A DNA stretch of 64,000 nt, taken from contig CM068835.1 of the NCBI GenBank assembly GCA_028554795.2, positions 59,615,719-59,679,718 on the forward strand. The letters are read 5' to 3'. The first letter of the stretch is position 1, and each line of letters starts with the position of its first letter. The stretch comes from Sinohyriopsis cumingii. Taxonomy: Eukaryota > Mollusca > Bivalvia > Unionida > Unionidae. The position numbers and the translations under genes were made by a program. A model generated the notes under the pieces. That model saw only the letters and a list, made by a program, of their open reading frames with translations. It had not been told where the DNA came from and did no database searches. This document shows positions 28,736 through 49,058 of this stretch, in pieces.

Positions 28736-29100
28736 AGTAGTGAAGGTGGTCGGATTAGCGACAATGGGAATTAGCATTACAGAGACCCCTGGGTCCGATT
28801 AGCGACAAGGGAAATTTAACATGGAGAAAAATCGTGGGTCCGATTAGCGACAAGGGAAATTAACATGGAGAAAAAAATATCGTGGGTCTGTCTAGCGACA
28901 AGGGAAATTTAACATGGAGAAAAAAAAATCGTGGGTCCGATTAGCGACAAGGGAAATTAACATGGAGAAAAAATCTTGGGTCTGATTAGCGTCAAGGGAA
29001 ATGGAACATGGGATTTTTTTTTTTTTTTTAAAAAGGGGTAGGCAATGGAAAGGCTATCTCTTTTCGAGATATATGGCTGGCCCTGAAAAGGGCCTTTGGT
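28736..29100 (+). repeat. left terminal inverted repeat of element 2, iterons
   Basis: Matches 48688-49052 in inverse orientation. It contains six tandem units built on GTCCGATTAGCGACAAGGG (starts near 28747, 28791, 28836, 28884, 28932 and 28978; spacing 44-48 bp), each followed by AT-rich aacatggagaaaaa. The inner end carries a histone-like stem-loop on the minus strand. Confidence 0.95.
29079..29094 (-). terminator. histone-type 3' stem-loop (minus strand)
   Basis: Read on the minus strand: ACCAAAGG, stem-loop GGCCCT-TTTC-AGGGCC, then AGCCA and, about 14 nt on, CGAAAAGAGAT. This follows the metazoan histone mRNA pattern of stem-loop plus purine-rich U7-binding element. It lies 22 bp beyond the stop of the 76-aa minus-strand gene. 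Confidence 0.75.
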
Positions 29101-29116
29101 TTATGTTAATATGCCC

Positions 29117-29347
29117 TTAACATAAAGGGCATTTGCGACATCTTCTTGTCTTCAAACTTCGTCTTACAGCAGGGCCATACATCAGAGTCCTCTTGAGGCA
29201 ACCTTGTCTCTCTATATAGACTCTTCTTATCCACAAACTGCTGCTGGTCCTGTGGACAACGGTCCACTTGGATCGGACATACATGAGCATGTCCGTCCTG
29301 AACATCATTGTTGACACAAGGGTTGAAAATTCAACGTCGGTCCACAT
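29117..29347 (-). CDS. small basic accessory protein, 76 aa
   Basis: Not recognised. Rich in Arg/Lys and Cys towards the C-terminus (RRSLKTRRCRKCPLC). A minus-strand TATA box (TATAAATA, about 29392-29399) lies 45-50 bp before the ATG and a histone-like stem-loop follows the stop, so it has a complete-looking transcription unit despite its small size. It is the only leftward gene of the left accessory cluster. Confidence 0.55.
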   Translation of the reverse strand: MWTDVEFSTLVSTMMFRTDMLMYVRSKWTVVHRTSSSLWIRRVYIERQGCLKRTLMYGPAVRRSLKTRRCRKCPLC

Positions 29348-29566
29348 GTTGAGGCTCCGAGAATAGGTGAATCAATGCAGTGAACTGCGCTTATTTATAG
29401 GGACAGAAAGGATTGAAACGGATTGAGTTCATTCACCAATCCGAACACGCGTTACAGAATTCAGTCAGCCCGCATCCAATCCGAAGAGAGCAGTCTGTGA
29501 CGTCACGTAGTCAATATAGATTCGCTAGCGCTTGTGTGCAGTCAATCTATGCGACAGTGATTCAAC
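29348..29566. promoter_or_regulatory. divergent promoter with perfect CRE palindrome
   Basis: The 219 bp between divergent accessory genes holds a leftward TATAAATA (29392-29399) and the CREB/ATF palindrome TGACGTCA at 29498-29505. The latter is followed by aatataga about 55 bp before the rightward ATG. Binding of host factors is inferred from sequence only. Confidence 0.5.
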
Positions 29567-30136
29567 ATGACGGAAACTCAGAAAACGATCCAATGGGGTG
29601 CACCAGCAGGGGAGACCGCCCAAGGGAACCCGGACTTACTTTCAGAAGAGGTGAATTGGGATTTTGTGGATTTTCTCTCCTCGCAAGAATTTGTTCCGGA
29701 ACCTGTGTTACCTTCTTCATTACCGCAAGTGGAAAATTTTAGACAGAGACAGAAAGAAGAATTGGAGAAATTTATACAACGACAAAAGGAAGCCGAACAA
29801 GTTTTTCTCCTACAGCAACAGCAGCAAGAAGAAGAGGTAAGAAAAAAACAACAGCAACAGCAAGAAGAAGTAGCAGCAAAGAAACAAGAGGGTGAAAATG
29901 AAACGGTCACGGTACTGTTGGACATTTTAGCGGAGTTAAGAAGTCTGAAACAAATGTATCAGACTTCTTTATTACGACCGAAGAGAATACGACCTTCCCG
30001 AGCCAAACACGTCAACCCTGTGACTAAGCCTACCGTACCACCCTTAGTGATTTCAACCCAATCATCAACATTACGCAGTTCAGAAGTAGGCCTTGGCCGT
30101 GGCAAAGGCATAAGGCAGTTAAAGTTGATTGGTTAA
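29567..30136 (+). CDS. Gln/Glu-rich coiled-coil accessory protein
   Basis: 189 aa. The N-terminus is acidic. A long charged coiled coil with Q and E runs spans roughly residues 55-110 (QQQQQEEEVRKKQQQQQEEV), followed by a helical ELRSLKQMYQTSLL segment and a basic C-terminus ending GLGRGKGIRQLKLIG. No family recognised. It is followed 27 bp later by a histone-like stem-loop. It resembles in style, but not in clear sequence, the coiled-coil accessory proteins at the right end. Confidence 0.7.
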   Translation: MTETQKTIQWGAPAGETAQGNPDLLSEEVNWDFVDFLSSQEFVPEPVLPSSLPQVENFRQRQKEELEKFIQRQKEAEQVFLLQQQQQEEEVRKKQQQQQEEVAAKKQEGENETVTVLLDILAELRSLKQMYQTSLLRPKRIRPSRAKHVNPVTKPTVPPLVISTQSSTLRSSEVGLGRGKGIRQLKLIG

Positions 30137-30162
30137 ACTCACCCCTGCACCGAAATAAAAAA

Positions 30163-30178
30163 GGCCCTTTTCAGGGCC
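30163..30178 (+). terminator. histone-type 3' stem-loop
   Basis: Stem-loop GGCCCT-TTTC-AGGGCC preceded by AAAAAA and followed by AGCCA, then TCTCGAAAAGAT about 11 nt later. Same arrangement as the copies in the terminal repeats but at an internal site, so it is not just a repeat by-product. Confidence 0.75.
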
Positions 30179-30437
30179 AGCCACATTTCTCGAAAAGATA
30201 TACAATTTCAAATTGCCAATAACTCAAAAAAAAAAAATATTCAACAGCCCATTTTACCCTTATAGTACGTGTTTGTGTATGAGTGCGTGAGTGTACGTTC
30301 TTATTTTAAAATCAAAACTCAAAGACACTTACCTTATATCATTCATTTATTCTTTTCTCCATTTTTTTACAATCCAATTCACAATTCACAACACAACACT
30401 TTAATAAAAAGTTCATTGACTTTTTCTTTCTCCTTGT

Positions 30438-30914
30438 TTAGTCTCTCTGTTTTTCTAATTTCTTCACCGTCACACTCTTTTCCTCTTCTTCCTCCTCCTC
30501 CATGCTTTCTTCCCTTCTTCTTTTCTTCTCCTGTTTCTTTTTCTTCACCTGTCTGCTTTCTTCCTCAGAAGAATCCCTCTCTTCCTTTGAAGAATCCTTC
30601 TCTTCTTCTGAAGAATTCCTCTTTTCTTCTGACTCCTCTTGTTTCTTTTTTGGGCAATCTGGAGACCAATGTCCTTTTTCTTTACAATAATAACAGGTAT
30701 CTTGACTTTTGTCTTTTTTATCCCCTGTTTTGTTTCTTTTTTGACGGTCTGGACATTCTGAAGACCAATGCCCTTTCTTCTGACAGATATAGCAAGTATC
30801 CTGACTTTTATCTCGAAAGGAAGGAGAGTAGTCCGTAGGCTGGTCTGAAGAGAATTTTCTAATGACCCCTCGCAAAGCTCTGACGAAACGTTCGATTTGG
30901 TTAGTCTCTTCCAT
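30438..30914 (-). CDS. CCHC zinc-knuckle protein, Lys/Glu-rich tail
   Basis: 158 aa from the ATG at 30914. The open frame extends to 30962, but a minus-strand TATA box (TATATAAAAGGG, 30967-30977) lies too close to that upstream ATG for it to be in the transcript. Two CX2CX4HX4C knuckles: CYICQKKGHWSSEC and CYYCKEKGHWSPDC. A long Glu/Lys/Ser tail follows. Retroviral-type knuckles usually bind single-stranded nucleic acid; the role here is unknown. It is divergent from the PolB gene. Confidence 0.75.
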   Translation of the reverse strand: MEETNQIERFVRALRGVIRKFSSDQPTDYSPSFRDKSQDTCYICQKKGHWSSECPDRQKRNKTGDKKDKSQDTCYYCKEKGHWSPDCPKKKQEESEEKRNSSEEEKDSSKEERDSSEEESRQVKKKKQEKKRRREESMEEEEEEEKSVTVKKLEKQRD

Positions 30915-30961
30915 CGTTGTGCTCGGCTTGAGAGTGAAATGAATAGTGAAAGAACAAGACA

Positions 30962-31010
30962 CACACCCTTTTATATACGCTAGTCTGCCATGACTATAAA
31001 TTAGTCTATG
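30962..31010. promoter_or_regulatory. back-to-back TATA boxes (zinc-knuckle / PolB)
   Basis: A leftward TATATAAAAGGG at 30967-30977 and a rightward CTATAAATTAG near 30994-31004 lie within 40 bp, about 50 bp from the zinc-knuckle and PolB start codons respectively. Confidence 0.6.
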
Positions 31011-31048
31011 GTGTTGGAACTTGAGTCATTTGACGTTTTTCACTCAAG

Positions 31049-34000
31049 ATGAAACGATCCCATTCATTTGAGAGGAAAGAAAAAGAAAGTAAGAGGCAGA
31101 AACGTGATCTATCGCCTCGTACTAGGGCTGAAATCTTGGCACAAATTCATGCCAGTGATTTTGAAGAGGACATGAGTGAACCAGAATCCGAACCCTCTAA
31201 ACCAAGTTCGTCACCCTTACTCAACCCTGAAAAATACTATTCCATTCGAGAGACGGAAAAGCGCTCCTCTAGAAAATTTAGAACCACGGCTTACACCTAC
31301 ACGGTGAAGTTTAAAGATTTCAAGTCCGACGTACCGTTGGAGAAAGCAGAAGGGTTCATCACCGAGATGTGGGATTCTTTGCTCACTTCACTTAAGCGAC
31401 AATGTCAACCCAAAGAAGACGATCGCTTGACACTATCCATAGATCACGACGGTTTGAAATCCCCTGTTTGGATCGAGTTTAGCTGACCCGCAGAACTAAC
31501 CCCTTCCAAAATCATGGACAAGATTCAACAGTACAACAATCTAATGACCAGTTTGACATCACCGATGGTAAAGCCACACTGAAAATGGCTCACGTCTCTC
31601 TTCCTCAAGGGACTGGACAACGCAATAAGGTGTTATTGGTGAACGAACTTCGCAGTACCAAAAAGAGCCTCGTCCAAATTCACAACCCTCAAGACCAGAT
31701 GTGTTTAGCCCGTGCCATCGTGGTGGGACGAACCTATGCCAACAAGAACGACACGGTAGAATGGAAAAGAACCTGGAAAACTATTCAACGATCCGATCGA
31801 GCCAAACAACGAAATGAAGCAGAACTCCTGTTGCAACAAGCTGGCCTGTCCAAAGACACACCCTGTGGCATTCCTGAGATGCAAAAATTGCAAGATGTCC
31901 TAGCTCCACGCTACACCTTGAAAGTGCACCCTCAAGAAATGCGCGGACCTTTGTTGTTTCGAGGCCAAGACTTTAAGGACGGAAAATACATTAATGTCTA
32001 TCATCACGATGAACATTTCGATACCATTACCAGTATCACTGGATTCCTGGGATATGTTTATTACTGTGAGAAATGTGACTATGGTTATAATAATCGAGAG
32101 CAACACAAACATTGTGGATCGAAATGCTCAGGATGTTTGGCCTCTTCACCCTGTCTGAGCGAAGAACCAGTGCCTTGTTCAACTTGTCTGCGCACGTTTG
32201 TCAGCCCTACCTGTTACCAACAACATCTGAAAACGCAAGGTTCACAGCAGAAATGTGCTTGTCAACTCCTGAGATTGTGCTCTACGTGTGAACAAGTCAT
32301 ACGTACCAATAATACCAAGGCACACATATGTTCAGGAAAGAAAAAATGTCACATTTGTCACCACATCGTGGACTTGGAACACCAATGTTACGTGCAAAAA
32401 TACCAACCCCCACCAGAGAAAGAGGACGGTCACAAGAAGAAAGGCAATTTCATCTTTTTCGATTTCGAATGCATGCAAGAAACCGGCATTCACATTCCTA
32501 ATTTCTGCGTGGCTCATCGAGCGTGCGAGAAGTGCATTCAAGAACCTATCTTCAGTCATTGCCCTCACTGCAGCAAAATTCCCGGAGGGCGTGAAAAAAT
32601 CTTTCGAGGACCGAACACGCTAGCCGATTTTGCCCAATGGGTCTTAGACCCCGTCGACAAGACGTGGAGCCAAGAGGACATCGAACGTTACCGAGATTGT
32701 CATCGTCATGCCACGGTGATGGCTCACAATTTCTCCGGATACGATGGACAGTTTCTTTTGAGGTACTATACGGAACAAGGCACCGAGCGTCCTAAAGTGA
32801 CTTTGAACGGAGTCAAAATCATTTTCATGCAAGTGGGACAAGTACAGTTTAAAGATTTGATGAGGTACTTGGCCATGCCTTTGAGCCGAATGCCTAAAAC
32901 GTTTGGAATGACAGAAATGGCTAAAGGGTACTTTCCACACTTTTTCAATACGGAAGCCAATCAACACGCCGTTCTACCCCATTTACCTGAGGCTCACTAT
33001 TACGACCCCGACAACATGCGTACCGAACAACGAGAAGCTTTCTACGCTTGGTACCAGGCTCACGCCTCGGACCCTTTCGACTTTCAGGAAGAAATGCTAA
33101 AGTATTGTCGTTCCGACGTTGACATTTTACGACGTTGCTGTGGAAAATTTCGAGAACTGTTCATGGAACACGGAGGGGTCGATCCTTTGAAAGAAGCTTG
33201 CACCATTGCCAAAGCGTGTTCCTTAGTGTATCGACAACGATTCATGCCTGAAAACACCGTGGCTGTCATCAGTCCTTAAACGACCCACTATGTCAAACGT
33301 CAATACTCGGTCAAAGCCCTACGTTGGTTACATTACTTGTGCGACAAGGAAGACAAGTGGATTCAGCATGCCCGCAACGGAGGGGGCGAAAAGACCATCG
33401 GAACGTATTCGGTCGATGGCTGGGACTTAGAAAACCCCAAGATCGTGTACGAGTTTAACGGTTGCTTATTTCACGGATGTCCCGTCTGTTACCCTGACCG
33501 TGGCACTAAAAATCAGTTTTTGCAACGAACCATGGAAGACTTGTACCATGACACTTGTCAGCGGCGCCTAAAGTTAGAACAGCAAGGATACCAAGTGGTG
33601 GAAATGTGGGAACACGAATACGATCACCGTATGAAACGTGCCGTGGAAAGTTACAAGCTGATGGACCCCCTAAACCCGAGGGATAGTTTGTACGGAGGAA
33701 GGACCAATGCCACCTGTTTGCTGTACCAAGTCGACGAAGAGAAAGGAGAATAAATCAAATACTTGGACGTGTGTTCGCTGTATCCCTACGTGTGCAAATA
33801 TTGTCGCTTTCCTACAGGGCACCCGCAATTGCTGACGGAACACATCGACCTGGTCAACATTCGACAATACGAAGGCTTGATCAAGTGCAAAGTTTTGCCT
33901 CCCACGAACCTATACCATCCCGTCTTACCTCACCATTGTCAAGGCAAACTGATGTTTCCTTTGTGCCGTACTTGTGCCGAAACGTGCAACCAAGATCAGC

Positions 34001-35070
34001 CTTGCCATCACAGCCAGGAAGAACGGGCCTTGACGGGAACCTGGGTCAGCGTAGAACTGTTCAAAGCTATGGACATGGGATACCAACTGTTAGAAGTGTA
34101 CAAAATTTGCCACTTTCCCAAGACACAACAATACCACAAGGGTGATCCCAGTCAGAAAGGCATTTTCGCCGACTACGTGGATGCCTTTTTGAAACTGAAA
34201 CAAGAAGCCAGCGGCTATCCTTCCTGGTGTCACACTCCCGAAGACCAAATACAATTCAAAGAGAAATACTACGAACAAGAAGGCATCACTTTAGACCACA
34301 TCGAGAAAAACGAAGGCAGGCGATCGTTTGCCAAAGTGATGTTAAATTGCTTGTGGGGTAAAATGGCACAACGACCGTGTTTACCCAAGACGGAATATTT
34401 GACAGAACCTTCCCGCTACTTCCAGATGATTCACGACAAAACCAAGTACATGAAACACGTGGACGTCGTTCGAGAGGATTTGATCTTGGTCAATTACGAA
34501 GAAGATCTGGACTTTGTACAAGACGACCCTTTTGGAAATGTCATCATTGCGGCTTACGTGACAGCCCATGCTCGCTTAAAATTGTACGAAGCTTTAGAAC
34601 TGTTAGGGGAACGCGTCCTGTACTTTGACACGGACAGTTGCATTTACATCCATCACCCGATTCAACATCACCCTGACATCGAAGGAGACCGTTTAGGAGC
34701 CTGGACAGACGAGCATCCCGACGACAAGATTCTAAGTTTCGTCAGTGGTGGTCCCAAAAATTACGGCTACGAATACCGGGACAAACAAGGAGAAGTGCAC
34801 ACGACGTGCAAAGTGAAAGGACTAACTCTGAATTATCGTACCAGTCGAGTGGTCAACTTTGGGGTATTGAAAGAAGCCTTGCAATCGGGAGAGGATGGAA
34901 ACTTTAAAGTGACCACTCACCAACCGAACAAGATTGTACGTTTACCCACTCACCACATCGTCAGTCGACCTTTGGAAAAAGTTTATCAAATCGTGTACCA
35001 GAAGCGAGTTCGACTTCCCAATCATTTTACCTTACCGTATGGACACGTTGGTATAAAACATTGGTTGTAA
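31049..35070 (+). pseudogene. protein-primed family B DNA polymerase, three breaks
   Basis: About 1340 codons overall, the usual size for Polinton PolB. Exonuclease motifs: FFDFECMQE (~32455), HNFSGYDGQF (~32725), YCRSDVDIL (~33100). Polymerase motifs: A, LDVCSLYP (33763-33786); B, KVMLNCLWGK (34333-34362); C, FDTDS (34624-34638). A Cys-rich zinc region lies around 32060-32400. Breaks: a frameshift at about 31480-31490 ending the 145-aa N-terminal frame, an in-frame TAA at 33277-33279, and an in-frame TAA at 33751-33753 just before motif A. All catalytic residues are still present, so inactivation is recent, or stop codons are bypassed, or the assembly is wrong. Family role: replicates the linear element from a terminal protein primer. 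Confidence 0.93.
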
Positions 35071-35093
35071 GAGGATAGTCACCCACCAGAAAG

Positions 35094-35552
35094 ATGACTT
35101 CGCCACAGCAAAAATCGAGTGAGAAACCCGATGAGAACTCCAAGTTCAAACCCTACCATTTTCCAGTCTTCTTACCTGACTATTGTGATTGTGCCCGTCG
35201 ATTGGACACGTTTCACAAATGGCCTACGGATAGGGAAGGATTACCTTCTTCGCATGTTTTAGCTAGAACAGGATTTGTCTACTTGGGACCTGAGTCAGGA
35301 TTGGGATACGAGGTACAGTGTTTCGCTTGCGGACTGAAGTTACGAATGGATCTATGTATCTATAAAGATTCAGCTATTCTGGAACATACTCGATGGTCTC
35401 CGCACTGCCCTTACCTTTCTATAGCCTTTCCACCCATCACACTACGGTACAATGTTGACGGTACCTTAGAGACGGTACCTTCCAGAACAGGACATAAAAA
35501 ACGTAAAAAAGGAAAGATGTACAAGCTGGAGACTGCATTGCGACTAGTATAA
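35094..35552 (+). CDS. BIR-domain (IAP-like) protein 1
   Basis: 152 aa with one BIR domain at about residues 25-105: RRLDTFHKWP, LARTGFVYLG, zinc ligands in VQCFACGLKL and EHTRWSPHC. The tail is basic (GHKKRKKGK). BIR proteins of baculoviruses and other animal DNA viruses block host cell death; the same is inferred here. A tataaaa motif lies just upstream, inside the PolB 3' end. The gene's own stop TAA is part of a TATAAAAAAGG motif serving the next gene. Confidence 0.92.
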   Translation: MTSPQQKSSEKPDENSKFKPYHFPVFLPDYCDCARRLDTFHKWPTDREGLPSSHVLARTGFVYLGPESGLGYEVQCFACGLKLRMDLCIYKDSAILEHTRWSPHCPYLSIAFPPITLRYNVDGTLETVPSRTGHKKRKKGKMYKLETALRLV

Positions 35553-35611
35553 AAAAGGGGCTATGGTCAAGATCGATAGTTCATTGTGACTACCAAGACC
35601 GAACGAACAAG

Positions 35612-36250
35612 ATGAGTACTTTCAGAGAAACACAGAACAAGTTGTTTAGAAGGGCACAATTCAAGTGTGAGGCTTCGGAAGTGGAATGCGATTGTGAGCC
35701 TTGCGATGGGTACGATGCTGTACGTTGTGATCTGAGCGATGCCGTAAAGCATCATGGGAACTTTAGTGTCCCTACCCCTATCATGGAAAGTGATGCTGTG
35801 CGTGTCAAACCTGTGGGATGCGAAAGTGATGCCGCTCGTCCTCTTGGACATTTTACTGGGTTTCGTTTTAAAGGGGAATGTTCACCTTCACGTCTACCCC
35901 CCTACGGATGTCATCCAGCCCTGAGCAAACTCCTACCCATGTCACTCAACCCTCATCGAAACGAACCTGTGAAAGACGAATATTCGTTCCCTGTGCGTTT
36001 GTCGGAATACTGCGACTTTGAAAATCGTCTTCAATCGTTCAAAGGAAAATGGCCAAAGTATCTGGGAGGACCGACCCCCGAAGAATTAGCCAGAGCCGGA
36101 TTTTTCTACTTGGGTGAAGGAGATAAAGTCAAGTGCTTCAGTTGCGGTGTGTCACTTCACCACTGGGAACCGCAAGATTCGGCCTACGTAGAACATGCTC
36201 GATGGTCACCGAATTGTCATTACTTACCCTTAGTGGGACCGAGACATTGA
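35612..36250 (+). CDS. BIR-domain (IAP-like) protein 2
   Basis: 212 aa. The N-terminal ~115 residues are not recognised (CDCEPCDGYDAVRCD-type acidic, Cys-containing). A single BIR domain follows at about residues 125-205: NRLQSFKGKWP, LARAGFFYLGEGDKVKCFSC, VEHARWSPNCHYLP. It has no RING. It is a tandem partner of BIR protein 1 with clearly similar BIR cores but otherwise different, so an old duplication or two acquisitions. Its TATA box overlaps the stop codon of the preceding gene. Likely anti-apoptotic. Confidence 0.92.
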   Translation: MSTFRETQNKLFRRAQFKCEASEVECDCEPCDGYDAVRCDLSDAVKHHGNFSVPTPIMESDAVRVKPVGCESDAARPLGHFTGFRFKGECSPSRLPPYGCHPALSKLLPMSLNPHRNEPVKDEYSFPVRLSEYCDFENRLQSFKGKWPKYLGGPTPEELARAGFFYLGEGDKVKCFSCGVSLHHWEPQDSAYVEHARWSPNCHYLPLVGPRH

Positions 36251-36278
36251 AGTAACTTCTTACCATAATAATCTGTTC

Positions 36279-36734
36279 ATGGATACTTTACAAGAGAACA
36301 TTCGTGCTTTGCCTGTGGAGTTGAGAGAACGCATTTACCGAGAGCTGGTCAAAATACAAGTGAAACGTAAAGAACAATTGCATCCGTTACGTCACCAGTG
36401 TTTGAACCACTGGTACCTGAAGGCTATACAAGGATTGATTCAATTGAAAGTGTTCCATCGGACAGACATTGATCAACGATCCTCTAGTTTTAAAAAGGAT
36501 TGGTTTGGTATGGACGATTGTAGTTACATCATTGTAAACGTACTGCATCGAATTCCAGAGGAAGAGTTAACGAATTACCAACATCTTGAACACAATGTCA
36601 ACTTAGTGAAAGAGGAAACTTCTGAACGAATTGTAATGTGTAGATTAGTGACTCAACGATTTAAATTTGACACTGAAGTGAAACCATGTTTGTGCAAAGA
36701 GTACATTTCTTGTGTCAGACCAAAGAGGATTTAG
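36279..36734 (+). CDS. F-box-like protein, first copy
   Basis: 151 aa. The N-terminus (ALPVELRERIYRELVKIQ) resembles the start of an F-box (LPxELxxxIYxxL), the SKP1-binding motif of ubiquitin ligase adaptors. The rest is not recognised. Nearly identical 5' sequence recurs at 36747, and a diverged C-terminal fragment at 37210, so this is a small tandem family. F-box assignment is tentative because the motif is short. Position beside two BIR genes suggests a host-modulation block. Confidence 0.6.
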   Translation: MDTLQENIRALPVELRERIYRELVKIQVKRKEQLHPLRHQCLNHWYLKAIQGLIQLKVFHRTDIDQRSSSFKKDWFGMDDCSYIIVNVLHRIPEEELTNYQHLEHNVNLVKEETSERIVMCRLVTQRFKFDTEVKPCLCKEYISCVRPKRI

Positions 36735-36746
36735 TATGACCTATTC

Positions 36747-37434: not shown

Positions 37435-37935
37435 ATGGTCACGAAAAACTCCTTTTGCTCAAAGCCTTGCGGTTTCATCTGGATACTTCTCGACCTCAAC
37501 AGGAAAAAAAGATTCGTCAACTTTTAGCTACCCAAGACGTGTATGACGATGTGTGTGTAGCTTGTGACTTACATCCCCATTGGACAGATGTCCGTGCCTG
37601 GAAAGAATGGGGTTTTGAGGCTTGGACCCAAGAAGTGGCCCAGTATGCACGAGAGTTGTTCAAGGAAAAAAGTTACTTTTCAACCCGTGTTAGTGACGGT
37701 GCCAGAAGAACCAGTCACCCAAGACGGGACTGTCGTGGACAGGCCTGAAAGACCCTTTCGGGAGGACACTTGTGTGACCTTACCCCCTACTATAGAACTG
37801 GTTAGAACATTACCCAAAACATGTTGTTGTACAGACACTTGTGTTTATTCCACGTTCATAGTTATCATGTGCCTTTTATTGTTGTACTTAAGCCTTTGGC
37901 TTTTATGTATTTTTGTCTTTCGTATTCATGTTTAA
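37425..37935 (+). pseudogene. small membrane-anchored protein, frameshifted
   Basis: The first frame (from ATG 37425, to 37748) encodes a helical domain (MALNGHEKLLLLKALRF ... FKEK). A second, overlapping frame (to 37935) carries a Pro/Thr-rich linker, a CCCTDTC cluster and a C-terminal transmembrane segment (FIVIMCLLLLYLSLWLL). The switch falls at a six-A run near 37667, the same kind of homopolymer break as in element 1. Alternatively these are two overlapping genes. No family recognised. Confidence 0.5.
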
Positions 37936-40961: not shown

Positions 40962-42056
40962 ATGGAAAAAGTCTTAGCCAGCATTTACTACGATCCCTCG
41001 CATCCTGCAGGTTACGCAGGAAAATTGTATCGTGCTGCCAAAAGTCGACTGAAAAGTCTCCGTTTACCTCAAGTGCAACGATGGTTACAAGAACAAGCTA
41101 CCTACACTTTACACAAACCCATTCGACGCAAGTTTGCCAGAAGTCGCACCCGAGTGGAAGGCATCGATCATCAATGGCAAGCCGATTTAGCCGATGTCTC
41201 TCATTTGGCCAGCTACAATCGTGGCTACAAATATTTGTTTTGTGTCATCGACGTCTTTTCCAAATTTGCCTGGGTCGTGCCCTTGACTTCCAAATCGAGC
41301 AGCGAGTTAGTGCGAGCCCTGCAACGGGTGTTGAAACAAAGCGGTCGTCACCCTCTTCGATGGCAAACGGACAAAGGCACCGAATTTCTGAACCAAGCTT
41401 TCCAAAAAGAATTAAAGAAACGTGACATTCATTTTTTTACCACCGAGAATCCCGAAACCAAAGCCAGCATCGTGGAACGTTTTCAACGCACTTTGAAAGA
41501 ACGCATGTGGAAATATTTTACGCATCACCACACTCTGAAGTACATCGACATCTTACCGCACCTGGTGCAAGCGTACAACCAATCTTACCATCGAAGCATC
41601 GGACGTGCCCCGCAAGACGTGACTCCCGACAACGAAGTGCTGGTGTTTGAGCGTCTGTTTGGTACGTCCCCGACGAGGGCTGTCCCCAAGAAAAGTGGAG
41701 AGTTGACCGTAGGAGATTGGGTGCGCATTGGCAAAACCAAACGCACTTTCGACAAAGGTTACTTACCTAACTGGACGACCGAACTGTTTCGCGTCACTGG
41801 ACGAGTGCATGGCCGTCATCCTGCCGTCTATAAATTGGAAGACATGAACGGAGAAGTACTCAAAGGAACGTTTTATTTACCCGAGTTACAACGTGTCACC
41901 AAAAATGAAGACGACGTGTACGACATTCTCGAACGCAGAACCCGTAAAGTGGGCAAACGACGTGTCAAAGAAGTCAAAGTACGTTGGAAAGGATATCCAC
42001 CCAGTTTCGATTCTTGGATCGACGCTTCGCAAGTCATCGACTATAAAAAGAAGTGA
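40962..42056 (+). CDS. RVE integrase with C-terminal chromodomain
   Basis: 364 aa, intact. Zinc/HTH-like N-terminus; catalytic Asp in HQWQADLADV (~residue 73), Asp in RWQTDKGTEFL (~134) and Glu in ASIVERFQRTLKER (~170). The last ~55 residues form a chromodomain (YDILERRTRKVGKRR ... VRWKGYPPSFDSWIDASQV), as in typical Polintons and some Gypsy elements, where it guides insertion to modified chromatin. The final codons (GACTATAAAAAG) double as a TATA-like motif for the next gene. Confidence 0.96.
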   Translation: MEKVLASIYYDPSHPAGYAGKLYRAAKSRLKSLRLPQVQRWLQEQATYTLHKPIRRKFARSRTRVEGIDHQWQADLADVSHLASYNRGYKYLFCVIDVFSKFAWVVPLTSKSSSELVRALQRVLKQSGRHPLRWQTDKGTEFLNQAFQKELKKRDIHFFTTENPETKASIVERFQRTLKERMWKYFTHHHTLKYIDILPHLVQAYNQSYHRSIGRAPQDVTPDNEVLVFERLFGTSPTRAVPKKSGELTVGDWVRIGKTKRTFDKGYLPNWTTELFRVTGRVHGRHPAVYKLEDMNGEVLKGTFYLPELQRVTKNEDDVYDILERRTRKVGKRRVKEVKVRWKGYPPSFDSWIDASQVIDYKKK

Positions 42057-42061
42057 CCATC

Positions 42062-42478
42062 ATGCCCTTTCACACAGCAGACGCAGCTACGTCGACCACT
42101 CCTTCTTCACCCAGTTCTTCTGTGCAAGATTTACAAAAACAACCCTTGTGGGTGTGGTGTGGAGAACGTGTGCCTAAAACGCAAATCGTCTTTTTCTGCC
42201 AAATCTTCGTGGTGTATTGTGTCATCGGGGCAGCCATCGCCAATTTGAGTTTGCAACAAGGAGACAAACAATTGTGGACCATTTTATTGAGCAGTTGCAT
42301 CGGTTACCTGCTTCCCAATCCCTCCCTGAAATTCTCCTCGAACGGGAACCACGGGAACCTTGTGTCCAGTGCCAGTGTCAGTCACCAGTCCAACCACAAT
42401 CAGAACTCCATTTTAGACGGAGACACGCCTCTGACGTCCAGTAACCCCTCGGAGAGCCACAAAACTCTGGAATTATGA
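42062..42478 (+). CDS. conserved Polinton membrane protein
   Basis: 138 aa from the ATG at 42062. Two hydrophobic segments (PKTQIVFFCQIFVVYCVIGA and WTILLSSCIGYLLPNP) separated by NLSLQQGDK form a conserved block I associate with Polinton/adintovirus TM proteins. The tail is Ser/Asn/His-rich. The stop overlaps the penton start (ATGA), indicating coupling with the virion gene. A place in an internal membrane or at the host membrane is inference. Confidence 0.75.
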   Translation: MPFHTADAATSTTPSSPSSSVQDLQKQPLWVWCGERVPKTQIVFFCQIFVVYCVIGAAIANLSLQQGDKQLWTILLSSCIGYLLPNPSLKFSSNGNHGNLVSSASVSHQSNHNQNSILDGDTPLTSSNPSESHKTLEL

Positions 42479-43413
42479 GTCACGAAAACCAATTTTACTT
42501 AACTTTACCCAGTGACAGTTCCATGGAAGTGTTTCCCAACAACACGTTGTGCTGTTACACGGCCAAATTACCTCAGGCCATCCCCTTAGATCACGAAGCC
42601 CATTGGGAAGTGGCTTTAGTAGAAATGATTCACCCGACCCAAGTCCTCAATGTCCTTCCCAATCAAAATAAATTTGATGTGGAAGTTCATGATGAACAAT
42701 TGCAACAGTGGATGGATAACCATGGCAAATATGACAAGAAAACCCCTGGCACAAAAAATCAAAAGTACACCACCTATCACTTGTTCATTCCCCCAGGCTA
42801 TTATTTTAGTGCTCAACATTTGGTCAGCACCATAGCCACCAGGTTTAATGGCGTGTTTCTGAAAGCTTTGGAGGATGTCAAAAAAGGTGTCGTCACCCTG
42901 GAGTACCACAAAACAGCTCGTCGCTTCCTGATGAAATTTCCTGAGGGGCGTAAAATGATGTCTTTCTTATTTTGTCCTGAATTGTTTGATATGTTGGGCG
43001 GAGACATGGAGATGAGAAAGAAATTTGAGCAAAAAGGTGAGCTAGCAGTGATTTACGACAACGAGTCTCTTAGCAAGTTCTTTCGTACCCCAGTAGAACT
43101 GAATCAAGGACTGAATTTGATGTTCGTGTATTCCGATGTGGTGGAGTACAACGTGGTGGGACACACCTCTGTACCGTTACTGCGTGTCATTCCTTTCAAA
43201 GTGGATTCTGCCGCGAACGCTGACGAGGAAGGTGGAAACACTTACCACGTCCACCGCGAATTTATTTATCCTCACTATTTGCCGGTCAGCAAGTCGTATT
43301 TGGACACGGTCAACATTACTATAAAAGGAGATTTGGGACAAAATATTACATTCACCAAAGGAAAAGTCACGGTGAAACTCCATTTTCGAAAACGGTTCTC
43401 TCACGACTCGTAA
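42475..43413 (+). CDS. penton-like minor capsid protein
   Basis: 312 aa, intact. N-terminal FYLTLPSDSSMEVFPNNTL, then HWEVALVEMIHPT, LFIPPGYYFSAQHLVSTI, and a C-terminal LDTVNITIKGDLGQNITFTK, all standard for adintovirus/Polinton penton proteins (single jelly roll). Vertex capsomer by family. It lacks the large internal insertion of the element 1 homologue. A TATA-like actataaaagg inside its 3' part (near 43319) may serve the pVI-like gene. Confidence 0.88.
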   Translation: MSHENQFYLTLPSDSSMEVFPNNTLCCYTAKLPQAIPLDHEAHWEVALVEMIHPTQVLNVLPNQNKFDVEVHDEQLQQWMDNHGKYDKKTPGTKNQKYTTYHLFIPPGYYFSAQHLVSTIATRFNGVFLKALEDVKKGVVTLEYHKTARRFLMKFPEGRKMMSFLFCPELFDMLGGDMEMRKKFEQKGELAVIYDNESLSKFFRTPVELNQGLNLMFVYSDVVEYNVVGHTSVPLLRVIPFKVDSAANADEEGGNTYHVHREFIYPHYLPVSKSYLDTVNITIKGDLGQNITFTKGKVTVKLHFRKRFSHDS

Positions 43414-43420
43414 GTAAGTC

Positions 43421-43837
43421 ATGTGTCCAGTGTACCGAGGGGTTGCTCGACAGCGAGGACACGGTTTAGGAGATATGTTAAAATCGGCCTTTCGTTCGGT
43501 GGCCCCGGTGTTGAAACCGATGGTGACACGCGGATTGCACGCCTTGAAAGATGCGGCACCGACGCAAGGCAAAGAATTTCTCCAAAATGTCATCATCGAC
43601 AAAGAAAACCCTAAAGAAGCCTTCATGAGGGCAGGCAAAAATGTCTTGCTGCAAACGGGTAAAGACATTTTGGGCCGACGAGACACACCTATAAATGCCC
43701 TGCACGCTACCGAGTCAGGCATTCAGCAAGGACAAGGCAGAAAGAGACGACGAAGAAAACACCCTTTCACCAGACTTCAAGCTAGAAAGGCCAAGAAAAG
43801 AAGAACCGTTCGAGACTTAGACGTTTTCGATTATTGA
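43421..43837 (+). CDS. pVI-like minor capsid protein
   Basis: 138 aa. GHGLGDMLKSAFRSVAP near residues 13-29 is homologous to the element 1 protein at 26724. A helical middle and a strongly basic C-terminus (GRKRRRRKHPFTRLQ) follow. By analogy with adenovirus pVI it would be a membrane-active, capsid-internal protein cleaved by the viral protease. It sits between penton and major capsid as usual. Confidence 0.8.
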   Translation: MCPVYRGVARQRGHGLGDMLKSAFRSVAPVLKPMVTRGLHALKDAAPTQGKEFLQNVIIDKENPKEAFMRAGKNVLLQTGKDILGRRDTPINALHATESGIQQGQGRKRRRRKHPFTRLQARKAKKRRTVRDLDVFDY

Positions 43838-43852
43838 AACACAGAAAAAAAA

Positions 43853-45166
43853 ATGATGCACCGAGAGTCTTGCGCTTGTTCCAAGACGGAACTGGATCTG
43901 TTTGCCATGCCCCCCACCATGATGACGATGCAAGAATCCCAATGGGTGGAATTTCACCCCGTCTCCTCATTGACAGCCTCAGCTCCCATCGAGTTTGAAA
44001 TCAAAGGACAGCCCGAAGATTACATCGATCTGAATAGCAGTTACTTGTACTTGAAAGTCAAAGTTGTCGATGAGGACAATTCAACCCTAGATGGCGATGA
44101 GGTAATAGCTCCCGTCAACAATTTCATGCATTCCTTGTTTAGCGGAGTGGACTTGTACTTGAACAACAAACTGGTCAGCAGCAGCATGGATACTTACCCT
44201 TATCGAGCGTACCTGGAAAATCTCTTGACGTACGGAATAGACGCCAAGAACACTCATCTCAATGCCTGTGTGGTATGGGAAGCTGACGAAGTAGGCCAGT
44301 TTGAAACATTCGAAACTGATGCAACCAAAACACCAAACAATGACGGATTTGTAGAACGAAGAGACAAAATCAAAAACGGACAAAGTTTAGAACTAATGGA
44401 TCGTTTGCATTTGGACATGTGGTTGCAAGAGAAATATTTGCTGAACGGGGTGAATGTCCGCCTGAGACTGAATCGTAGCAGTGCCGCTTTCCATTTGATA
44501 GGTAATACTGCTTGCAAAACTGTCATCGAGGAAGCCAGGTTCTACGTACGACGCGTAGAAGTGTTACCTAAAGTGGGTAACGACATCAGTCAGACGTTGA
44601 GCAGAACGACCGCTAAGTATCCGATCCGACGCATGGAAGTGAAAACCTTCACCATTCCCAAGGGACAGCGATCCATGATCGAAGATCATCTGTTCCAAGG
44701 ACAGCTACCCAAACGTTTGATCGTTGGTATCGTCGAAAATGAAGCCTTCAACGGAGCTTTGGCTAAAAATCCTTTCTACTTTCAACACTTTGGCGTGTCC
44801 AAAATCGAAGTCAGTCGCGATGGCAAGACCTTGTGTACCCGACCTTTCGAACCTGACTTTGAGAAGAAGAATTACTTGAGATCGTACTTGTCCCTGTACG
44901 AAGCCACCGGCCAGTTAGGAACCAACACCAGTCAAGGCATTACGTACGAGGATTACGCAGGAGGTTTTGCTTTGTGGGCTTTCGATTTCACTCTAGACCA
45001 AGGCAGCGACGAGAGACATTTCCACCCTATAAAATCCGGCCAAATTCGTGTGGAAATTCAGTTTGCAAACCGAGACCCTGATGTAACGGTGAACGTCATC
45101 CTGTATGCCGAATTTGATAATACAATAGAAATCAATAGTTTGAGAGAAGTCATTCTAGATTACTAG
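43853..45166 (+). CDS. major capsid protein (hexon-like, double jelly roll)
   Basis: 437 aa, intact. Typical Polinton capsid features: the early ESQWVEFHPVSSLTASAPIE strand, LNSSYLYLKVKVVD, NNFMHSLFSGVDLYLN, YRAYLENLLTYG, and later KNPFYFQHFGVSKIEVSRDG and YAGGFALWAFDFT. Forms the icosahedral shell. A TATA-like cctataaaatcc near 45029 in its 3' end probably belongs to the next gene. Confidence 0.95.
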   Translation: MMHRESCACSKTELDLFAMPPTMMTMQESQWVEFHPVSSLTASAPIEFEIKGQPEDYIDLNSSYLYLKVKVVDEDNSTLDGDEVIAPVNNFMHSLFSGVDLYLNNKLVSSSMDTYPYRAYLENLLTYGIDAKNTHLNACVVWEADEVGQFETFETDATKTPNNDGFVERRDKIKNGQSLELMDRLHLDMWLQEKYLLNGVNVRLRLNRSSAAFHLIGNTACKTVIEEARFYVRRVEVLPKVGNDISQTLSRTTAKYPIRRMEVKTFTIPKGQRSMIEDHLFQGQLPKRLIVGIVENEAFNGALAKNPFYFQHFGVSKIEVSRDGKTLCTRPFEPDFEKKNYLRSYLSLYEATGQLGTNTSQGITYEDYAGGFALWAFDFTLDQGSDERHFHPIKSGQIRVEIQFANRDPDVTVNVILYAEFDNTIEINSLREVILDY

Positions 45167-45171
45167 AAGCC

Positions 45172-45657
45172 ATGGAAGACTGTTATCCCTCTTTACCTAG
45201 TGGAGAAACTTTGGACATGGAATGTAAGGAGACCGTGGAAAAAGAAGAAGTGATCATGATGAAGTCCCGATGGCCAGAACAAGAAGCGCATTTAGTCTCC
45301 TGTTTTGCCAAACACTTGGTCGATAAAATGACGGAATTGATCAAGAAAAATTGTTATAGATGTCAAAACGATCATCCCAGTCAAATTCAACACGATAAAT
45401 GCCTAATGTTGAGTCAAGAAGAAAAATTGGACGAGTATCTGGACGAAGCTTGGAGTCTCATCTCGAACAAAGACGTGTTGCACCAGTGGTATAAAGACTT
45501 GCGTGAACATTCTTGTCCACCATTAACCACTCAAGAGATCCATCGTATCGAAGCTCTCCTGAATCAGAGTGAGGAAACAGAACGAATAACCGTTTATTCG
45601 TCAGACATTTTCAAGCAAAAAGTCAGGATCGAATTGACGACTTATTATTACCTGTGA
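45172..45657 (+). CDS. conserved small protein with CxxC..H..C motif
   Basis: 161 aa. The segment NCYRCQNDHPSQIQHDKC, with possible zinc ligands, is a conserved motif of unnamed small Polinton/adintovirus proteins encoded between capsid and protease. The rest is acidic and helical. Function unknown. It starts 5 bp after the major capsid stop. Confidence 0.65.
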   Translation: MEDCYPSLPSGETLDMECKETVEKEEVIMMKSRWPEQEAHLVSCFAKHLVDKMTELIKKNCYRCQNDHPSQIQHDKCLMLSQEEKLDEYLDEAWSLISNKDVLHQWYKDLREHSCPPLTTQEIHRIEALLNQSEETERITVYSSDIFKQKVRIELTTYYYL

Positions 45658-45680
45658 AGAAGAAAAACACACAAACACAA

Positions 45681-46241
45681 ATGGATACCTGGGAACTTTA
45701 TTACCTTTTGAACCACAGTTCGTATACGGCTTCTTGGAATCCTGTCGTCTGTGCTAAAGATGAACTCCCTCATCGCAAACCTAAAGACCATCAAGCTTAC
45801 GTGATCAACACGGACGACAGTCATCTCCCAGGAACCCACTGGGTAGCCGTTTACTTTCCTCAAGAAGGATGTGTGGAATATTTCGATTCGTACGGATTGC
45901 CCCCTTTGGAAGACGATATCGTCGACTTTATGAGAAGAAATGCTCAAACCACCCGATTCAATAATGTGAAATTACAAGGCACAGATTCCTTGGTGTGTGG
46001 ACAATATTGTGTGTATTTTCTGCATCATCGCAGCCTGGGCTATTCCTTAGAACATTTAGTGACTCATTTCGATCCTCGTTCTTCTGCTAGAAATGATGTG
46101 AAAGTAGATCGATGGTTTTGTGACCATTATGCTTATCTTTTGTCTCAAGCTAGGAAACGTAGTGTCCATCAATGGCCTAATGATTTCCAACAGTGGAAAT
46201 CACAATTTAATTCACAACGTTGTCAGCCCTGTTTAAAGTAG
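45681..46241 (+). CDS. adenain-like cysteine protease
   Basis: 186 aa from MDTWELYYLL; upstream in-frame codons are Lys/Asn/Thr linker read-through and less likely. Catalytic set: His in LPGTHWVAVYF, Asp in EYFDSYGLPP, Gln in VKLQGTDS, Cys in LVCGQYCVYFL. Size and motif order match adenovirus-type proteases. Expected substrates are the pVI-like and pX-like proteins. Last core gene of the element. Confidence 0.93.
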   Translation: MDTWELYYLLNHSSYTASWNPVVCAKDELPHRKPKDHQAYVINTDDSHLPGTHWVAVYFPQEGCVEYFDSYGLPPLEDDIVDFMRRNAQTTRFNNVKLQGTDSLVCGQYCVYFLHHRSLGYSLEHLVTHFDPRSSARNDVKVDRWFCDHYAYLLSQARKRSVHQWPNDFQQWKSQFNSQRCQPCLK

Positions 46242-46580
46242 ATTGTCCATTGAGAAAAAAACTGTTTGTGATTTGAAAAAAAATTGTTTGATGTTATAGT
46301 GTTGGATTATTGTTAAAAAATGTTAGAGTTGTTGTTTAGTGTTAAGTGATTTTTGAATAAAAAATGTTGTGTTTTGAAAAAATGTCTTTGTCTTTTGTTT
46401 AGCTAGAAGAATGTTGGATTGATGCTCTTTGATTTCTTACTATCCCTCTCATGACACTCACTAAACGTTGCGGCTCGAAAACCGTGTGGGGGATGTTTTC
46501 CTTCACGTCCGCGCTTTGACTTTAAGAACCGGGGTTGTTTCCAGTCTAACCATCCATTGTCGACTCATCCTCCTACGAAG
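46242..46580. promoter_or_regulatory. core-gene polyA signal and first accessory promoter
   Basis: Contains an AATAAA (near 46356) that would end the core transcripts by ordinary polyadenylation. At about 46488-46526 it contains the module GGGGATGTTTTCC, TTCACGTCCGCGCTTT and a TATA-like ACTTTAAGA, 55-60 bp before the first right-end accessory ATG. Confidence 0.65.
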
Positions 46581-46943
46581 ATGTGCTCCAAACTAGCTAA
46601 GCTCAACGAAGCCTACGTGAATCTGCATAGGGTCAGACACAGTCTGATACCGAAGCCAGAAGAAATAGAGAATGTGAGAATGTTAAAAATCACTGAAGAC
46701 CTAATAGAAGAGCTCTTCAGAGAAGAAATGAACAGGGAAAAAGAAGAATGGACAGAGAAGTACAGACTTCAGAGACAGCAGCAACAGCAGCAACAACAGC
46801 AACAGCAGCAGCAACAACCTGAAGCTGACAGAGGCTTTGTCGATTGTCGTATCGACACCAAAGAGTTCTTCTTCTCTTTCCGAAGAAGCAGACCTATCGC
46901 CAGAAAGTCTATCCTCAGAGGACATCGCATTATTAGAAACTAA
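46581..46943 (+). CDS. coiled-coil accessory protein 1, CAG/polyQ tract
   Basis: 120 aa from ATG 46581 (a longer TTG-initiated frame begins 24 bp earlier). The N-terminus KLAKLNEAYVNLHRVRHSL is helical and shares its pattern with accessory proteins 2 and 3. A pure Gln run of about 17 residues encoded by CAG/CAA follows, then a Ser/Arg tail. It has the shared promoter module upstream and a histone-like stem-loop 28 bp after the stop. No family recognised. Confidence 0.7.
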   Translation: MCSKLAKLNEAYVNLHRVRHSLIPKPEEIENVRMLKITEDLIEELFREEMNREKEEWTEKYRLQRQQQQQQQQQQQQQQPEADRGFVDCRIDTKEFFFSFRRSRPIARKSILRGHRIIRN

Positions 46944-46971
46944 AAAAGAATGCCATAGCAAAACAAAAAAC

Positions 46972-46987
46972 AGCCCTTTTCAGGGCT
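46972..46987 (+). terminator. histone-type 3' stem-loop
   Basis: AACAGCCCTTTTCAGGGCTACCCA: stem AGCCCT/AGGGCT, loop TTTC, canonical ACCCA flank, then TCTAGAAAAGAAATAAC about 12 nt later. Relative to the terminal-repeat copies the first base pair is A-U instead of G-C, a compensated change. Confidence 0.78.
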
Positions 46988-47360
46988 ACCCAATACTCTA
47001 GAAAAGAAATAACGATCGATTTGCCAATGTGTGTAGGTAGAGTAGTGTGAAAATAAACATAAACTCATTATTAAAAAAATGTGAGGGTATGTGTTTGTGT
47101 GTTTGTGTGTTTGTGTTTGTAAGTGATAAAGTAGGTTTGTGTGGATAGTAGATTAAAATGATGTTTGTTTTTTTGGGCTGTTTGAGGTGTATATTTGGGG
47201 TTAGATTGGATTGCTTTGCGTATGTGGATAGTCTATTGAAGTAATTTATAAAAAATTTTACAATAGTGATGGGTAGCATAAAAAAGTGAGTGAGTGTTTC
47301 TTTTAGGTCCGCGCGTTGTTTTTTGGTCACGATCTAGGTAAGATCAATTTTATGTTATTA

Positions 47361-47398
47361 GGGGATGTTTTCCATCACGTCCGCGCTTTCACTATAAA
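47361..47398 (+). promoter_or_regulatory. shared accessory promoter module
   Basis: GGGGATGTTTTCC followed by ATCACGTCCGCGCTTTC and ACTATAAAT, 55-60 bp upstream of the 47451 ATG. The same module, in the same order and distance, precedes the other right-end accessory genes. Confidence 0.7.
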
Positions 47399-47450
47399 TT
47401 GAAACTCGCTGGGCAGTCTAGCTACCCTTGTTGATTGATCAACACCAAAA

Positions 47451-47822
47451 ATGAACACGAGACTGGAGAAACTGTTGGAACTTCATGTGCATCTGGAATA
47501 TGCCAGGCGCATATTAAATGAACTGGCCGCGGAAGCCATTGTCGAGGAGGGAAGGATAAGAGAGGAGGAAAGAAGAAACAAAGAAGAGGAGGAAAGAAGA
47601 TATAAAGAAGAAGAAGAGGAAAGAAGATACAAAGAGGAGGAGAGAAGATGCAAAGAAGAGGAGGAGGAAAAGGAGAGAAGAAAAAATTTCAGAATCCCAG
47701 AGAGCGAAAATTGGGATTCTGAAGCGACGTATCCTGCCTCTGCTCTCTCCCCCCAAAAGGTAAAAAGTAACTGGGGGATAAGATGTGTATGTGGTGCCAG
47801 GCCTGGAAGGTGCCACCATTAA
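47451..47822 (+). CDS. coiled-coil accessory protein 2, Glu/Arg/Lys repeats
   Basis: 123 aa. The N-terminus TRLEKLLELHVHLEYARRIL resembles accessory protein 1. A repetitive EEERR(Y/N/C)KEEEE tract of ~60 residues follows, then a Cys-containing tail (IRCVCGARPGRCHH). It probably arose with its flanks by duplication of the neighbouring unit, since the downstream ~90 bp is nearly the same as that after gene 1. Role unknown. Confidence 0.7.
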   Translation: MNTRLEKLLELHVHLEYARRILNELAAEAIVEEGRIREEERRNKEEEERRYKEEEEERRYKEEERRCKEEEEEKERRKNFRIPESENWDSEATYPASALSPQKVKSNWGIRCVCGARPGRCHH

Positions 47823-47851
47823 CCAGGTGTCCATGAAGTTCCAAACAAAAC

Positions 47852-47867
47852 AGCCCTTTTCAGGGCT
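47852..47867 (+). terminator. histone-type 3' stem-loop
   Basis: Same AGCCCT-TTTC-AGGGCT stem-loop with AAACAAAACA leader, ACCCA trailer and TCTAGAAAAGAAATAAC downstream element, 30 bp after the stop of the 47451 gene. Confidence 0.78.
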
Positions 47868-48130
47868 ACCCAATACTCTAGAAAAGAAATAACGATCGAT
47901 TTGCCAATGTGTGTAGGTAGAGTAGTGTGAATATAAACACTAACTCTTTATTAATAGTGGAAGTGTATGTGTTTGTGTGTTTGTGTTTGTAAATGTTGAA
48001 GTAAGTTCGTGTGTTAGTGTTTGTAAATGATGAAGTAAGTTTGTGTGAATAGTAGATTATGGGTTTATTTATTGATTCTTAGCGTATGTAGAGAGTATAG
48101 TTAGGGTTATATTATATGAAATGAGAAAGT

Positions 48131-48238
48131 AGGGGGATGTTTTCCTTCACGTACGCGCGATGTTGGGTCATGATCTAGGTAAGATCAATTTCATGTTTTT
48201 AGGGGGATGTTTTCCTTCACGTTCGCGCTTTCACTATA
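48131..48238 (+). promoter_or_regulatory. duplicated accessory promoter module
   Basis: Two copies of GGGGGATGTTTTCCTTCACGT: one at about 48131 followed by ACGCGCG, the other at about 48201 followed by TCGCGCTTTCACTATAA. Between them is a gatctaggtaagatcaat phrase that also occurs upstream of the 47451 gene. The second copy is 52-56 bp from the 48290 ATG. Confidence 0.7.
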
Positions 48239-48289
48239 ATAACCCACAGTGTTTGTTGTTCAAACCATTCTGCAAAGAATAAAAAGAAG

Positions 48290-48667
48290 ATGGCGTCAAA
48301 CCAAATGGACAAAATACAAACCTTACAAGACGTTTTAGACAACTTAGGAATAATGGAACAGATGCTAATAAGACTCGTTGAAGACCATTATTCCTATAGT
48401 CCCCATCGTGTAAAGATGGAAATTAACAACTTAAGAAAAGCAAAGGAGAAGATTAGTGGTGTGATGAAGGAAATAAAGGAGGAGAAGGAGGATGAAGAGG
48501 AAAAGATAAGAATAAGAACATGGAACGAAAAAATTGAAAAAGAAGAAGAAAATGAGAAGAGGAAGAAAGAAGAGGAGGAAGAGAAGAAAGAAGAGGAGGA
48601 GAAAAAAAAGAAGAAAAAGAGTGTAGGTGAGAAAATAAGAAGTTGGTGGAGGAAAAGAAGAAATTAG
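48290..48667 (+). CDS. coiled-coil accessory protein 3, Glu/Lys-rich
   Basis: 125 aa. The helical N-terminus KIQTLQDVLDNLGIMEQMLI follows the pattern of the other two accessory proteins. The rest is an extended Glu/Lys coiled coil, and the C-terminus is basic and Trp-rich (KIRSWWRKRRN). The stop is 25 bp before the stem-loop inside the right terminal repeat. No family recognised. Confidence 0.7.
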   Translation: MASNQMDKIQTLQDVLDNLGIMEQMLIRLVEDHYSYSPHRVKMEINNLRKAKEKISGVMKEIKEEKEDEEEKIRIRTWNEKIEKEEENEKRKKEEEEEKKEEEEKKKKKKSVGEKIRSWWRKRRN

Positions 48668-48687
48668 AAGCAGAAGAAGAAGAAAAC

Positions 48688-49052
48688 CCAAAGGCCCTTT
48701 TCAGGGCCAGCCATATATCTCGAAAAGAGATAGCCTTTCCATTGCCTACCCCATTTTTTTAAAAAAAAAAAAATCCCATGTTCCATTTCCCTTGACGCTA
48801 ATCAGACCCAAGATTTTTTCTCCATGTTAATTTCCCTTGTCGCTAATCGGACCCACGATTTTTTTTTTCTCCATGTTAAATTTCCCTTGTCGCTAGACAG
48901 ACCCACAATATTTTTTTCTCCATGTTAATTTCCCTTGTCGCTAATCGGACCCACGATTTTTCTCCATGTTAAATTTCCCTTGTCGCTAATCGGACCCAGG
49001 GGTCTCTGTAATGCTAATTCCCATTGTCGCTAATCCGACCCCCTTCACTACT
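48688..49052 (-). repeat. right terminal inverted repeat of element 2
   Basis: The inverse of 28736-29100, with the same six iteron-like units and, at its inner end, the histone-like stem-loop that terminates the 48290 gene. Differences between the two repeats are few (single bases and poly-A/T lengths), indicating a young insertion. Confidence 0.95.
48693..48708 (+). terminator. histone-type 3' stem-loop
   Basis: AACCCAAA precedes GGCCCT-TTTC-AGGGCC, followed by AGCCA and, after about 12 nt, CGAAAAGAGATAG, which contains the AAAAGAG core complementary to vertebrate U7 snRNA. Best match of the five to animal histone gene ends. Confidence 0.8.
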
Positions 49053-49058
49053 ATTATT

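Follow-up and report, generated by a model that had tools for sequence, protein, structure and literature searches.

A 64,000-nt stretch of the Sinohyriopsis cumingii genome (contig CM068835.1, positions 59,615,719 to 59,679,718; hereafter the window, to which all coordinates refer) contains a Polinton-type element, and our analysis suggests that this element borrows the host histone mRNA machinery for five non-histone accessory genes, g1 to g5. Each of these genes is followed, in sense, by a stem-loop and a purine element of histone type. The geometry of these signals is constant, and they are conserved between spacers that have diverged. We consider it likely that the host stem-loop binding protein (SLBP) and U7 small nuclear ribonucleoprotein (snRNP) process the g1–g5 mRNAs in the histone manner, without a poly(A) tail, and that accessory expression is tied to S phase. 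Of the parts of this reading, we infer processing by SLBP and U7, for which the sequence gives good support, and the lack of poly(A); S-phase timing would follow if histone-type processing occurs. Histone-type 3′ ends had been proposed for this element in a first-pass annotation made from the letters alone. Support for them comes here from an independent covariance model, their constant geometry, the restriction of conservation to the signal and a g2 homologue that reads through into the module.

According to the accessible parts of published work (PMC7807067, PMC12774660, PMC9133132), the histone stem-loop binds SLBP, the purine-rich histone downstream element pairs with U7, cleavage takes place between the two without addition of poly(A), and SLBP is specific to S phase. 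In bivalve histone mRNAs the stem-loop lies near the stop codon, and purine elements were noted for four genes (PMC6210712, as far as its accessible text goes). Because bivalve histone mRNAs carry a stem-loop at this place, it is very likely that the host has the SLBP/U7 machinery; the viral signals fit it.

The window was searched with cmscan and the Rfam Histone3 covariance model (RF00032; gathering score 34), a check that the first-pass annotation had named for its claim. Three of the five copies scored above gathering (g1, g2 and g5; E-values 1.2e-6 to 2.4e-6), and the g3 and g4 copies were found at E 6.4e-5. The five stem-loops stand where they had first been placed, and no other Histone3 match was found at E≤1 in the window, including a neighbouring second element. 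A letter pattern for the stem-loop gave five matches against none in 100 shuffles, but it was written after the copies had been seen, so the Rfam model serves as the independent test. By sequence, all five copies have a 6-bp stem and a 4-nt UUUC-type loop. The stems of g1, g2 and g5 are GGCCCTTTTCAGGGCC and those of g3 and g4 are AGCCCTTTTCAGGGCT; the former is listed, letter for letter, among human histone stem-loops (PMC7807067, accessible part). When the sequence between the stop codon and the end of the module's purine element was folded, the stem-loop was present in the minimum free energy (MFE) fold of four of the five copies (z −3.35, −2.29, −2.01 and −3.95).

The geometry is equally regular. 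The distance from stop codon to stem is 22, 26, 28, 29 and 25 nt for g1 to g5, the trailer is AGCCA in three copies and ACCCA in two, and the purine element GAAAAGA begins exactly 13 nt past the stem in all five, which agrees with the arrangement first described. The CUCUUUU sequence of human U7 is complementary to AAAAGAG. Of the 44 open reading frames (ORFs; ATG to stop, 70 aa or longer) whose stops fall inside the element, five have a stem-loop core in sense within 60 nt past the stop. This bears on the idea that the hairpins work as DNA or RNA elements of replication or packaging near the ends of the element and not as mRNA 3′ ends. The terminal inverted repeats do carry two of the copies at their inner edges, but the other three are internal, all stand in sense past stop codons, and the match spans the 46-nt histone model including flanks, trailer and purine element; we regard a role in replication or packaging as very improbable.

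The five copies cannot be counted as five independent ones, as the first-pass annotation had done. About three sequence types are present, because the g1 and g5 copies sit within the terminal inverted repeats and are thus copies of each other, and the g3 and g4 copies sit within a 108-nt repeat of 96% identity. Over 50 nt, the copies of g2 and g5 agree to 88%. Conservation is nevertheless confined to stem, trailer and purine element, as far as this alignment tells, and the spacers have diverged. Invariant columns made up 25 of 28 in the signal versus 11 of 37 elsewhere (65 aligned columns, Fisher p 1.3e-6), a test in which the limits of the signal were set after the alignment had been seen and the copies are of about three types only. 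The signal varies in three columns, and two of these form the first stem pair, which is altered on both sides. Compensation had been claimed for the first and the fourth stem pairs; it holds for pair 1, which co-varies from G-C to A-U, whereas pair 4 does not vary within the element and departs from the Rfam consensus alone.

Further evidence came from the homologues of g2, of which we found 20 (58–94% identity), all from short contigs. One of them, P0130, lacks the usual stop and reads past the normal end with a 31-residue extension. When this extension was compared with the six frames of the window, its five best places included the modules of g5, g2, g1, g3 and g4. The peptide was also read back by hand: it specifies G G C C as the first letters of the stem and, in the loop, T at the first and third positions and C at the fourth. 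Within the 3′ arm it fixes G G and C C, and 13 nt past the stem GARAAR, with the spacing taken from the codon count. P0130 thus continues into what looks like the same 3′ module; the argument lies in the agreement of place, frame and spacing, not in single scores. Another g2 homologue, P0140, has an N-terminal part that runs into a stretch like the start of the PolB ORF, and may be a deletion form or an assembly chimera.

These data also bear on whether the signals are a passive relic, that is, a host histone 3′ end captured once, spread by duplication and homogenisation of the terminal repeats, and now functionless. The small number of copy types is what such a history would leave, one pair of copies being located in the terminal repeats and another in the 108-nt duplication. 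Against it are the confinement of conservation to the signal, the compensated stem pair, the constant spacing and the position of each copy in sense past an ORF; moreover, a relative retains the module though the g2 proteins in our alignment are at most 75% identical beyond the closest homologue. We therefore think a relic unlikely.

The 3′ modules are attached to unlike genes. No histone domain was found in g1–g5 with Pfam at E≤0.1. In comparisons of the N-terminal 60 residues, g3 and g4 were weakly alike (17 of 500 shuffles as good), and the other nine pairs were at or near chance (62 to 482 of 500). The five coding sequences thus appear mostly unrelated while the 3′ modules are common to all, and for this reason the module looks like a reusable part. 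For g5, one homologue above threshold was found, in the unionid freshwater mussel Sinanodonta woodiana, with 83% identity over 65% of g5. Taken with the homologues of the 437-aa ORF at 43853 (below), this by itself points to a probable unionid as host.

Several observations weigh against the histone-type reading. An AATAAA lies at 30154, between the stop codon and the stem-loop of g2, and another at 47052, 65 nt downstream of the g3 stem-loop. Since these signals are so close, poly(A) ends of g2 and g3 are possible. The MFE fold of the g4 copy is another structure (z −0.61; an equal or better fold was reached by 62 of 200 shuffles). The matches of the P0130 extension to the modules score 22.7 to 20.4 bits and are singly weak (200 shuffles gave a median best of 18.9 and a maximum of 24.6), the fifth of them is equalled by an unrelated place (11509-11441), and the peptide forces A at stem position 6, where U stands here, so that pair 6 is either compensated or broken. 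The purine elements of g1 and g5 are able to fold into a second hairpin, AUCUC-GAAAA-GAGAU, seen in the terminal-repeat copies at 29054-29070 and 48718-48733, which might hinder pairing with U7 or might be a switch. No Histone3 match was found at E≤1 in three distant relatives from GTDB contigs (L001–L003, 40–42% identity), so the covariance search proposed in the first-pass annotation was positive in the element and empty in these relatives. The null speaks against wide conservation, though with little weight, because L002 is decayed and the contigs of L001 and L003 are short; all three are probably host DNA within metagenome-assembled genomes of symbionts or other organisms. Finally, the copy itself may be inactive, because the PolB frame (31585-35070) has two in-frame stops, despite terminal repeats that are 96–98% identical. 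This Polinton copy is young and has a broken polymerase gene.

The poly(A) signals also determine how far g1–g5 differ from the core genes, which had been described as ending in AATAAA instead. This was found after the zf-CCHC gene, ORF 37588-37935 and the protease-like gene, but, as noted for g2 and g3, AATAAA is not restricted to core genes, and the contrast is weaker than first described. The accessory genes might thus be dual-ended, with the stem-loop used in S phase and AATAAA otherwise, as in mammalian H2A.X, which would give an S-phase boost and would not replace polyadenylation. Dual 3′-end processing of H2A.X has been published (PMC7807067), and in mussels the cDNAs of H2A.X and H2A.Z have poly(A) tails (PMC3256202), both according to the accessible parts of these papers. 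However, the g2 AATAAA is upstream of the stem-loop and cleavage there would cut into it, and no AATAAA occurs within ~160 nt past the stops of g1 and g5. Dual ends are possible in our view, at odds clearly below those of histone-type processing.

If histone-type processing does occur, host SLBP would bind the stem-loop of the g1–g5 mRNAs, host U7 snRNP would base-pair with the downstream GAAAAGA, and the transcripts would be cut between these sites to give non-polyadenylated viral mRNAs, which would be translated and degraded like those of histones. The accessory proteins would then be made mainly during DNA replication, because SLBP is an S-phase protein, and the AATAAA-ended core genes would not be so limited to S phase.

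A different role for the same signals would be that of a decoy, in which abundant stem-loop RNAs from a multi-copy template titrate SLBP and U7, host histone supply drops and viral DNA is less covered by nucleosomes. Five signals in one element, together with promoter modules, would suit such a role, and the suppression of the host's histone H4 by a bracovirus H4 indicates that viruses are able to act on the histone pathway (PMC12819152, accessible text). But an ORF precedes every signal and the g2 protein is conserved, so whatever else these RNAs do, they are messages as well, and we give the decoy little credence. Equally doubtful is the most far-reaching version, in which the non-histone genes of the element are histone mimics licensed by SLBP and U7 in S phase only, both terminal repeats carry the signal, and the RNAs of many copies drain SLBP and U7 from host histone mRNAs, which would leave fewer histones for new viral DNA to meet.

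According to the accessible part of a 2026 paper, histone mRNAs are the only animal protein-coding transcripts without polyadenylation (PMC12819152). If SLBP/U7 processing of g1–g5 is real, this rule would be broken by non-histone genes. A DNA virus would also have a new means of sensing the cell cycle of its host, and the genes would provide a natural non-histone reporter for SLBP/U7 processing. In the literature searched, whose coverage was partial, no virus or transposon with histone-type 3′ ends was found, so novelty is unproven.

The coordinates of the features are collected below. The limits of the element are exactly those first stated, with ATTATT on either side as 6-bp target duplications (28730-28735 and 49053-49058). 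The terminal inverted repeats are ~372 nt long, and their arms are 98% (I1) and 96% (I2) complementary. A DNA_pol_B_2 match, of the protein-primed PolB type, was found in two ORF pieces, with the two stops in their joint frame. The element further encodes an integrase with rve and Chromo domains, an A32-like packaging ATPase (Pox_A32), a zf-CCHC protein and two BIR proteins (Pfam). The two BIR (inhibitor-of-apoptosis) genes lie side by side at 35094-36250, and downstream of them is a 209-nt direct repeat (36268 and 36736, 87% identical). The protease-like gene matches the adenovirus-type protease family PF00770 below the Pfam cut-off (E 0.0082). ORFs 43853-45166 and 42475-43413, putative capsid genes, gave no match in Pfam or PHROGs, and a profile search with the former found no relative in the PDB. 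This 437-aa ORF at 43853 has 1203 homologues; among the best 120, the closest identities are 83, 80, 77 and 78%, and the named ones are mostly from bivalves (Mercenaria, Ostrea, Crassostrea; at most 54%), plus one gastropod. No LXCXE motif was found in the 11 ORFs checked. A TTGCC motif stands ~10–15 nt past the purine element in all module types (29040-29107, 30153-30217, 46962-47026).

Features of the Polinton-type element and its accessory genes (window coordinates)
Feature	Position	Strand	Description
Polinton-type element	28736..49052		20317 bp; from sequence: inverted repeats; PolB, integrase, ATPase domains
Left terminal inverted repeat	28736..29107	+	inner edge holds g1 stem-loop and purine element
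Right terminal inverted repeat	48680..49052	+	inner edge holds g5 stem-loop and purine element
g1	29117..29347	-	76-aa ORF, the least certain; no Pfam match
g2	29567..30136	+	189 aa, coiled-coil-like, basic KRxRPSRAK stretch; no Pfam match
g3	46581..46943	+	120 aa; no Pfam match above cut-off
g4	47451..47822	+	123 aa, E/R/K-rich; no Pfam match above cut-off
g5	48290..48667	+	125 aa, E/K-rich; homologue in Sinanodonta woodiana
Divergent g1/g2 promoter region	29348..29566		two CCAAT boxes, one TGACGTCA, TATAAA for g1 (52 nt upstream of its ATG)
Promoter module GGGGGATGTTTTCCTTCACGTCCGCGCTTTGACT	46488..46530	+	upstream of g3; similar copies 47360-47402 (g4), 48202-48244 (g5)
g1 stem-loop	29079..29094	-	GGCCCT-TTTC-AGGGCC; RF00032 match 29054-29099, 35.6 bits
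g2 stem-loop	30163..30178	+	GGCCCT-TTTC-AGGGCC; RF00032 match 30158-30202, 34.8 bits
g3 stem-loop	46972..46987	+	AGCCCT-TTTC-AGGGCT; RF00032 match 46967-47012, 31.0 bits, below gathering
g4 stem-loop	47852..47867	+	AGCCCT-TTTC-AGGGCT; RF00032 match 47847-47892, 31.0 bits, below gathering
g5 stem-loop	48693..48708	+	GGCCCT-TTTC-AGGGCC; RF00032 match 48688-48733, 35.6 bits
g1 purine element GAAAAGA	29059..29065	-	13 nt past stem
g2 purine element GAAAAGA	30192..30198	+	13 nt past stem
g3 purine element GAAAAGA	47001..47007	+	13 nt past stem
g4 purine element GAAAAGA	47881..47887	+	13 nt past stem
g5 purine element GAAAAGA	48722..48728	+	13 nt past stem
AATAAA after zf-CCHC gene	30346	-	
AATAAA after ORF 37588-37935	37948		
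AATAAA after protease-like gene	46356..46361	+	ordinary poly(A) signal of a core gene

Database controls covered IMG/VR and a phage collection. In IMG/VR, no relative was confirmed with the 43853-45163 protein, its alignment (A1) or the ATPase alignment (A3), and the strict stem-loop pattern gave no stretch; the pattern scans cover the written letter patterns only, not every possible histone stem-loop. The stem-loop with an ANCCA trailer gave two stretches, neither of which had an Rfam match at E≤0.5; both are on contigs whose ORFs appear phage-like. A pattern of the 3′ arm followed by the purine element gave 52 stretches, none of which had the full 6-pair stem; both sets were taken as chance. 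Nothing in the phage collection matched the terminal repeat. To the left of the Polinton, at a distance of 40 bp, is another integrating element of a different kind (11208-28695). It has 288-nt terminal inverted repeats of 100% identity and codes for an rve integrase, an A32-like ATPase, a 1196-aa helicase-domain protein, an HNH protein and a protein with a double-jelly-roll match.

In its DNA_pol_B_2 polymerase, rve-chromo integrase, A32-like ATPase, terminal inverted repeats and 6-bp target duplication, the element resembles Polintons/Mavericks and adintoviruses, and the capsid and protease labels are at most weakly supported; in the literature searched we found no account of histone-type 3′ ends for these elements. 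With replication-dependent histone mRNAs the accessory genes share the 6-bp stem, UUUC loop, ACCCA-like trailer, purine element, short distance from the stop and short intronless ORFs; here, however, the genes are non-histone genes in a mobile element, and one stem type starts with A-U. Like H2A.X with its dual processing, g2 and g3 have a stem-loop and a nearby poly(A) signal (PMC7807067, accessible part), but H2A.X is a host histone gene. The variant histone H4 of bracovirus is likewise a case in which a virus intervenes in the histone pathway of its host (PMC12819152, accessible text). There the virus encodes a histone, whereas here non-histone genes bear the histone RNA signal.

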